From: a virus | IMG/VR virus record: IMGVR_UViG_3300032288_004567 | Coordinates: 1 to 38,703 of that record | DNA length: 38,703 nt | Direction: 5' to 3' (one strand) | Shown here: one piece after another, positions 24,270-26,207 of the stretch | How positions within the stretch are numbered: the stretch's first letter is position 1 | How the letters are laid out: each line of letters begins with the position of its first letter | The notes under the pieces: model-generated | What the model was told of the DNA's origin: nothing | Seen by the model: only the letters and a program-made list of their open reading frames with translations | Databases searched by the model: none | Translations under genes and position numbers: made by a program

Positions 24270-24629
24270 TTATCTGTCAAAGAATTGTTTGTACGCTTGA
24301 TTGTGTGTTAATTTATGAGCAGCAATAAGTTTACACATCTGCGCTATTATATTTAAAGGCAGATCGGGATGATGAATTTCAGAATGACAGTTATGGCAAA
24401 CAAGAACGCATCTGTTAAGTTCTTCTTCTGCGCCTTTAACAGACATGCCTATCAAATAGTTGCCAGATAACCTAGCACCTTTCTCGTTGATATGATGAAA
24501 AGCTAAACCTGCTAAATTCTTTTTGTAGCCACATATCACACATTTCCCGCCAGCCTTTTTTATGAGGTTGTATTTTCTTAATAATCTCATTACCTTATTT
24601 CTTTTTACAGAAGAAGGATTTTTAGGCAT
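24270..24629 (-). CDS. HNH homing endonuclease (free-standing)
   Basis: A 119-residue HNH nuclease. CVICGYKK and CHNC are the two zinc-ribbon knuckles. Between them AFHHINEKGARLSG carries the catalytic HH, and CVLVCHNCHSEIHH gives the Asn/His part of the motif. A basic N-terminal helix (KRNKVMRLLRKY) could bind DNA. I chose the ATG at 24629, since the 11 codons before it look like spurious extension. It is on the - strand between the hairpin-rich region and the tRNA cluster, typical of a selfish insertion near RNA genes. Confidence 0.8.
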   Translation of the reverse strand: MPKNPSSVKRNKVMRLLRKYNLIKKAGGKCVICGYKKNLAGLAFHHINEKGARLSGNYLIGMSVKGAEEELNRCVLVCHNCHSEIHHPDLPLNIIAQMCKLIAAHKLTHNQAYKQFFDR

Positions 24630-24672
24630 CGCATAATATACGATATGTATAATGCGCGGCAAGCTATCTTCG

Positions 24673-24776: not shown

Positions 24777-24851
24777 GCCCGGTTCGTTTAATGGATAGGA
24801 CAAGGCTCTTCTAAAGCCTTTATGGGGGTTCGATTCCCTCACCGGGTACCA
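24777..24851 (+). tRNA. tRNA-Arg (anticodon UCU)
   Basis: Folds as a full cloverleaf: acceptor GCCCGGT/ACCGGGT, D stem GTTT/GGAC, anticodon stem AGGCT/AGCCT with loop CTTCTAA, T arm GGGGG-TTCGATT-CCCTC. CCA is encoded. The first pair is G1-U72. It would read AGA and AGG codons. Confidence 0.9.
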
Positions 24852-24862
24852 GTTCTTTGACA

Positions 24863-24876
24863 TCATTTAATTTTCG
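24863..24876 (+). repeat. 14-base motif before tRNA-Ile, copy 1
   Basis: TCATTTAATTTTCG abuts the first base of tRNA-Ile. The same 14 bases abut tRNA-Met at 25208-25221. It could be a processing or transcription signal, or the trace of a duplicated tRNA cassette. Confidence 0.7.
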
Positions 24877-24951
24877 GGGATATAGCTCAGTTGGTAGAGC
24901 GGCATCTTGATAAGGTGCATGCCGCAGGTTCGAGTCCTGCTATCCCTACCA
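24876..24951 (+). tRNA. tRNA-Ile (anticodon GAU)
   Basis: Cloverleaf with acceptor GGGGATA/TATCCCT, TAGCTCAGTTGGTAGAGC D arm, anticodon stem GCATC/GGTGC with loop TTGATAA, T arm GCAGG-TTCGAGT-CCTGC, encoded CCA. As in tRNA-Arg and tRNA-Leu here, the first pair is G1-U72. Confidence 0.92.
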
Positions 24952-25207
24952 TTTCGTAAGTAAACAATTAATGCTGCCGTGTGCTAGCTTAAATCGGTGA
25001 ACAACCGAGCGGTAGCTCCAATTTAGATGTGGGTGAAAGTCCCAGAAGTGTCGCTGAGGCACTTGTTCCACGACGGGCTCTAAAACTTGAGAGTTCACCA
25101 CAATAAAATACAGTGAGAATCCGATGCTGGGAAGACTGTCCGAAAGGAAGATTGCAAGGCTAGGTAGTATCTAACAGAATCTCGTCGGTGGAGATGAAGC
25201 TGTACTC

Positions 25208-25221
25208 TCATTTAATTTTCG
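25208..25221 (+). repeat. 14-base motif before tRNA-Met, copy 2
   Basis: TCATTTAATTTTCG, identical to 24863-24876, directly adjoining the tRNA-Met 5' end. Confidence 0.7.
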
Positions 25222-25295
25222 CGCGGGTAGCTCACTGGGTAGAGCAGGGGTCTCATAAACCCTTGGGGAGGGTTCAATTCCCTCACTGCGCACCA
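25221..25295 (+). tRNA. tRNA with CAU anticodon (Met, or Ile after modification)
   Basis: Cloverleaf with D arm TAGCTCACTGGGTAGAGC, anticodon stem AGGGT/ACCCT with loop CTCATAA, T arm GAGGG-TTCAATT-CCCTC and encoded CCA. The acceptor GCGCGGG/ACTGCGC has one G-A mismatch at 7-66. It lacks the mispaired 1-72 of bacterial initiators. CAU could also be tRNA-Ile2 if a lysidine enzyme acts on it. It is embedded within the ornate RNA region. Confidence 0.85.
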
Positions 25296-25533
25296 ATTTG
25301 TCTTGCGTGTAAGAGGACAGTCCTAAACACGAAAGCTGGTGAGGAACGAACTGATAAATCGTCAGCCTCAGCCTAGCCAAGACAATCAATTTCCGCTCAA
25401 CCCGAGATGCTAGTGCCCTTGCGGAATAGGCACGTACAGCTAGCATTTCACCAACTTCTCAGCTAGGGGACAAGAGGCTCCATGCCTCGATCAAGGGAGT
25501 AATATCCTGAGACTTACCCTAGCTGGGATTCCC

Positions 25534-25619
25534 GGGCGTGTGGTGTAAAGGTTGCAAAGGCACAAGGTCGAAAGGCTGGTATTACTGAGGAGCAGGTTCG
25601 ATTCCTGCCGCGCCCACCA
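25534..25619 (+). tRNA. tRNA-like element without a normal anticodon arm
   Basis: The acceptor GGGCGTG/CGCGCCC, a D-like arm GTGT/GCAC, the T arm GCAGG-TTCGATT-CCTGC and an encoded ACCA end are all good. The 27 bases between D and T arms (25565-25591) do not form a 5-bp stem with a 7-base loop; only GGTC-GAAA-GGCT with two G-U pairs is possible, so no anticodon can be read. It could be a decayed tRNA, or a tRNA-like 3' processing signal for the ornate RNA that ends just before it. Confidence 0.6.
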
Positions 25620-26121: not shown

Positions 26122-26207
26122 GGCCCAGTGGTGAAATGGTAGACACAACGGACTTAAAATCCGTTGCCTTTAAAAGCGTGCCGGTTCGAGTCCGGCCTGG
26201 GCTACCA
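26122..26207 (+). tRNA. tRNA-Leu (anticodon UAA)
   Basis: A class II tRNA of 86 nt: acceptor GGCCCAG/CTGGGCT, anticodon stem ACGGA/TCCGT with loop CTTAAAA, a long variable arm (TGCCTTTAAAAGCG), T arm GCCGG-TTCGAGT-CCGGC and encoded CCA. G1-U72 again. It would read UUA and UUG. Confidence 0.92.

Follow-up and report, generated by a model that had tools for sequence, protein, structure and literature searches.

Independently closed RNA modules in a phage tRNA array, among them a covarying small RNA family

Layout of the tRNA array

The window, meaning the whole stretch of DNA analysed here, is a 38,703-base virus record from IMG/VR in which a tRNA array spans positions 24777 to about 25620, with an extra tRNA-Leu at 26122. 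All the array features and linkers given below lie on the plus strand. The first gene of the array is a tRNA-Arg (TCT, 24777–24851), which is followed by a tRNA-Ile (GAT, 24876–24951) and a tRNA-Met (CAT, 25221–25295), the three of them recognized by both ARAGORN and Rfam. Directly upstream, on the opposite strand, there is an HNH endonuclease gene (24270–24662, minus strand), with apparent counterparts in the IMG/VR contigs L003, L004 and L033. In L033 (9533–10430), a group I intron interrupts tRNA-Met and itself carries an endonuclease-like (HNH-type) gene in the opposite orientation.

A first-pass annotation had described the region as one large ornate RNA with a pseudoknot, wrapped around a tRNA with CAU anticodon. 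All the elements that it listed are present. The CAU tRNA is real, the 8-bp junction-closing helix is formed by TTGTCTTG (25298–25305) with CAAGACAA (25378–25385), the pseudoknot strands are TTCCGC (25391–25396) and GCGGAA (25421–25426), the 12-bp helix pairs 25457–25468 with 25517–25528, and a tRNA-like element with an abnormal anticodon arm follows, which Rfam scores as tRNA and ARAGORN misses. The general claim of structured non-coding RNA beside phage tRNAs is also supported by folding: compared with dinucleotide shuffles, the 3' half of the region (25296–25533) is far more stable than chance (z −4.5); the 5' half taken as a whole (24952–25220) has chance-like stability (z 0.05).

The spacers between these genes are occupied by small modules. 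X1a (24973–25020; fold z −2.7) is a 48-base module that reads as a mini tRNA, with an acceptor-like stem, a T-arm-like hairpin UCGGUGAACAACCGA and a 3' UCCA; no relative of it was found. X1b (25022–25084), closed by UUUAGA/UCUAAA and containing two hairpins, is weak (z −0.7) and gave no relative either. X1c (25088–25210) is closed by UGAGAGU/ACUCUCA and has a z of about 0, so that X1b and X1c fold no better than chance. On the other side of tRNA-Met, X2 (25298–25385; z −4.2) is a three-way junction with the 8-bp helix as its closing stem, and X3 (25388–25452; z −2.5 without the pseudoknot) consists of a hairpin whose loop pairs with an upstream strand; a 6-bp tail-to-loop match of this kind arises in about 2% of shuffles. 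X4 (25457–25528) is closed by the 12-bp helix. The last feature is the tRNA-like element (25534–25619), with an acceptor stem, a D-like arm, a GAAA-capped stem replacing the anticodon arm, a T arm and CCA. It passes the Rfam tRNA model (33.8 bits, cut-off 29) with a 12-bp acceptor/T arm plus CCA; a decoding anticodon arm is missing, since the model leaves a 23-base stretch of the anticodon region unaligned and ARAGORN reports nothing.

Exchange of modules among relatives

Four relatives were found in IMG/VR by a neighbouring protein 82–85% identical, and a fifth, L033, was found via X4. In L003 and L005, the order is tRNA-Pro, tRNA-Met, X3, a new 190-base module (X5), X4 and the tRNA-like element. 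L004 has a new module X6, X1c, tRNA-Met, another new module X7, X4 and a reduced tRNA-like element. L033 carries X2, X7, a different tRNA-like element, a 290-codon gene and then X4, which sits there directly before the gene that in the window follows the array. L006 lacks X4 throughout its 121-kb record. Thus, X2 occurs without X3, X7 replaces X2/X3, and X4 occurs without tRNA-Met or the tRNA-like element. Modules that are kept, lost or swapped singly are not parts of one obligatory fold, and the region is an array, similar to a tRNA operon, whose modules are closed independently of each other, not one giant RNA.

This independent exchange contradicts the single RNA wrapped around tRNA-Met. 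The idea of a large composite RNA of a new GOLLD/ROOL-like class, with the tRNA inside and folding as a whole, has some basis, as 25296–25533 is very stable and GOLLD RNAs, which lie near tRNA islands, may carry tRNAs in a linker (PMC12286853). However, X4 is found alone in many phages, and a helix bridging both sides of tRNA-Met was neither listed in the first-pass annotation nor seen by us. The Rfam covariance models, whose use had been proposed as a check, gave no match for GOLLD or for ROOL, either at the gathering threshold or at E values up to 10, and no credible family other than tRNA, which also speaks against a divergent member of those two families. Neither did they give a credible match to group I introns, tmRNA or ribozymes at X1–X4, and the same search detects group I introns in L033, L150 and L142 and tmRNA in L148. 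GOLLD is a single long RNA with many members over 800 nt (PMC12286853), whereas the longest stretch free of tRNA in our array is 269 bases and its modules are separable in the relatives. Moreover, GOLLD and ROOL are single cage-forming RNAs of hundreds of bases and the modules of the window measure about 48–125 bases each, the likeness being that all are phage-encoded structured RNAs near tRNA islands. We consider a composite RNA extremely improbable. From the suggestion of a new class of large phage RNA, the part that stands is a new phage RNA family with covariation, X4; being large and single does not. When folding is the sole basis of a call, a string of small RNAs may be taken for a single 'large RNA'.

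The homologues of the remaining modules inform on whether their folds are selected. The homologue of X1c in L004 is about 75% identical and shares a conserved core, GGGAAGACUG..GAUUGCAAGGCUAG, with four compensatory pairs and one broken pair relative to the window. X7 shows three compensatory and three one-sided changes, with none broken. The homologue of X2 in L033 (10879–10966) is 89% identical; 27 of its 28 pairs are the same as in the window, compared with differences in 16 of the 41 unpaired columns. Substitutions fall almost exclusively on unpaired bases, which is the mark of a constrained fold. In L003/L005, where its neighbours differ, X3 shows 97% identity across 65 bases, and its pseudoknot is unchanged in L003, these homologues being too alike for covariation. 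Of the helices at which covariation was to be checked, the 12-bp helix of X4 displays it, X2 offers mostly unchanged pairs and X3 is too uniform to tell. In tight scans of IMG/VR, X1c, X2 and X3 appeared only in close relatives of the window phage.

In the tRNA-like element, two compensatory pairs separate the window from L003 and the odd centre is kept, so the element looks maintained rather than decaying. In L004, it is reduced to one perfect acceptor/T-arm minihelix, GGGCGCGGCAGGTTCGATTCCTGCCGCGCCC, and it is absent beside X4 in L033. Other elements with an acceptor stem and a T arm, in which a good deal of other sequence replaces the D and anticodon arms, occupy a similar array position in L006 (13753–13924) and L033 (11110–11233).

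Spacers of this sort might also be remnants of decayed tRNAs, introns or mobile cassettes with incidental folds, as homing endonuclease genes within and beside the arrays, the split tRNA-Met of L033 and the reduced tRNA-like element of L004 would suggest. Against this, X4, X7, X1c and the tRNA-like element have undergone compensatory changes and X2 conserves its paired bases, which indicates selection on structure. We find the remnant explanation very improbable for the array; it is contradicted for X4 and may hold for X1b.

X4, a phage RNA family

X4 has a length of about 72 bases and folds considerably better than dinucleotide shuffles (z −5.0). It comprises the closing helix P1 (25457–25468 with 25517–25528), which is the 12-bp helix mentioned above, the strand GACAAG, the P2 hairpin GAGGC-UCCAU-GCCUC, a third helix P3 and the stretch ACUUA. 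Homologues were collected in IMG/VR with a 16-base probe, which returned eight stretches, and then with two broader patterns, which led to 28 distinct sequences. The final pattern fixed only GACAAG and the P2 hairpin, so that the search did not select for P1 or P3, and every stretch that it returned has both helices and scores 55–78 bits with the covariance model R1. The copy in the window matches R1 at 25458–25528 with 75.3 bits (E 7.6e-19), its sequence being included in the model.

In the alignment of the 28 distinct sequences, 93.9% of the cells pair, compared to 74% in shuffled alignments and 38–56% in slid ones, and 14 of the 21 pairs change on both sides. The covariation score is 0.578, versus 0.212 in shuffled alignments and no more than 0.163 in slid ones. 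Two of the five shuffle measures are not extreme, namely the number of double-changed pairs (29 of 500 shuffles) and that of extra pair types (65 of 500). All P1 pairs of columns 5–12 have changed on both sides, for instance A-U/U-A/C-G at 9–106, and RNAalifold arrives on its own at P1 and P2 as well as the base of P3. The invariant unpaired bases are GACAA, the C and U of the YNCRU loop of P2, and the UA that precedes the closing pair; longer members place GUAAG opposite CGACAA within P3. X4 is a genuine, previously undescribed phage RNA family.

Exactly one copy of X4 is detected by R1 in 27 of the 28 phage records, all of them IMG/VR contigs. By shared proteins, the loci fall into about 15 phage groups; the count is 17 clusters at three shared ORFs, some of which are split only because the sequence stretch compared is short. 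In seven contigs (L011, L039, L050, L143, L145, L148 and L154), X4 belongs to a tRNA array, and array copies begin 5–6 bases past the CCA end of a tRNA, after an AUUUU-type spacer. In eight others (L008, L010, L013, L014, L041, L130, L134 and L149), it is intergenic and away from tRNAs. Most copies have several U immediately 5' of P1. X4 has no fixed gene partner, as the neighbouring genes differ between phages. Two of the contigs with X4 also contain a tmRNA gene (L148, 1–412; L039, 4092–4525).

With the phage records as positive control, X4 was found in none of 398 bacterial genomes of one phylum. At BLAST sensitivity, nothing significant was obtained in named phages; the family is absent from Rfam, and no relevant X4 sequence is printed in the searchable text of open papers. 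A set of 79 pattern matches in bacterial genome contigs was rejected as chance-like, with at most 22 bits versus 52–78 in phages. A match before a queuosine gene of a Vibrio phage was also rejected, as P1 is missing there and the score is 16.9 bits.

Linkers, processing and possible roles

The word AATTT occurs five times in 24851–25460, compared to 0.7 expected (p 0.0005), and always at a module boundary: before tRNA-Ile (24869–24873) and, in the same word scan, between X1a and X1b (25020–25024), X1c and tRNA-Met (25214–25218), tRNA-Met and X2 (25295–25299), and X2 and X3 (25388–25392). As RNA, these spacers match the consensus RN/WUU of RNase E (PMC5222698), an enzyme that the host may lack. 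Within the array, the count of promoter sites is no higher than in shuffles.

We think it probable that tRNA genes alternate here with genes for independently folded small RNAs, whose common transcript would be cut to release stable small RNAs, among which X4 would act in trans. The array would be transcribed as a single polycistronic tRNA/small-RNA precursor; RNase E of the host, or an equivalent enzyme, might cut it at the single-stranded AAUUU spacers (AA/UUU), and RNase P together with tRNA 3' processing could trim the ends of the tRNAs and of the tRNA-like element, so that small stable RNAs, X4 among them, would be set free. RNase P and tRNase Z are able to act on acceptor/T-arm helices. 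The simplest reading of the tRNA-like element would be that of a processing signal, that is, a dispensable landing site for RNase P/tRNase that separates X4 from the downstream gene.

Several known systems resemble parts of this proposal. RNase P processing at a tRNA-like element is characteristic of the MALAT1/mascRNA type, to which the window offers an analogy, in that a tRNA-like element comes directly after a structured RNA and might define the 3' end of the latter; the difference is that beside X4 in L033 the tRNA-like element is missing. RNase E is able to make a small RNA from a polycistronic tRNA precursor, as in the leuZ-3'ETS type (PMC5222698). There, a non-tRNA RNA derives from a tRNA precursor, as X4 would in the window, although the leuZ-3'ETS product is a spacer fragment and X4 is a folded, conserved RNA closed by a helix of its own.

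Since the work on T4, phage tRNA clusters have been recognized as places that can hold stable RNAs of unknown function, for which there are few comparative handles. The closest known kind is that of the stable RNAs rnaC (species 1) and rnaD (species 2) of T4, which are 119–139 nt long and whose genes adjoin those of the phage tRNAs, in a cluster that also contains a homing endonuclease gene; the 3' hairpin of rnaC resembles a T arm, as in the tRNA-like element of the window. Like them, X4 is a structured RNA other than a tRNA that is encoded within a phage tRNA cluster or next to one, and the function of the T4 RNAs is unknown (PMC9697503). There is no homology between them, since R1 run over the T4 cluster with filters off gives at most 6 bits, and T4 has two such RNAs, whereas the window has five or six different modules, of which X4 recurs across phage groups. 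As far as tested, X4 appears homologous neither to the T4 RNAs nor to GOLLD/ROOL and would be a new family in a known kind of setting. In our opinion, X4 provides a comparative handle, in the form of a covariance model and numerous homologues, with a single copy in each phage and invariant bases that can be mutated, through which the role of non-tRNA RNAs in phage tRNA clusters becomes testable.

The main competing explanation is that X4 and its sister modules act in cis, as a leader, attenuator or terminator controlling the next gene. In L143 and L033, a start codon follows X4 after 15–18 bases, runs of U follow P1 in L011, L143, L134, L149 and L156, and several copies lie outside tRNA arrays. 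Yet cis regulators usually retain their gene, and the genes downstream of X4 differ in nearly every phage group; in L145, L136, L011 and L028 X4 is followed by a tRNA, and the invariant bases far exceed the needs of a terminator. We therefore regard a cis role as unlikely.

Judging from these sequences, the phages carrying X4 very probably make a dedicated small RNA. Once released, this RNA of about 72 nt would act in trans through a conserved partner. Its covarying helices may hold the GACAA strand, the YNCRU loop and the opposing UA in a fixed shape, a candidate binding site for a partner common to many hosts. That the loops stay constant while the helices vary freely suggests a protein that recognizes X4, rather than pairing of X4 with a multitude of targets, and our guess is that the partner is most likely a conserved host protein. 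Whether X4 would be a widespread undescribed trans-acting phage RNA that binds conserved host machinery, with tRNA arrays as a general platform for collecting and swapping such RNAs as cassettes, is to us an evenly balanced question.

A second module recurs in arrays, at L151 2995–2922 (minus strand), L150 2639–2569 (minus strand) and L153 2341–2416. Its motif is UU(G/A)AGCAG...AACGUGUGUUA...GG(G/A)AAUACGUU(C/U)CC...CUGCU(C/U)AA; it is absent from Rfam, has a fold z of −4.3 and presents compensatory changes in the closing helix and in a hairpin. Words of the GTTCTTTAAAA type, similar to the boxA of rRNA antitermination, precede many tRNA/RNA modules, X4 included (L151, L137, L153, L133 and L139), and in L150 and L151 the second module is preceded by the boxA-like GTTCTTTT.
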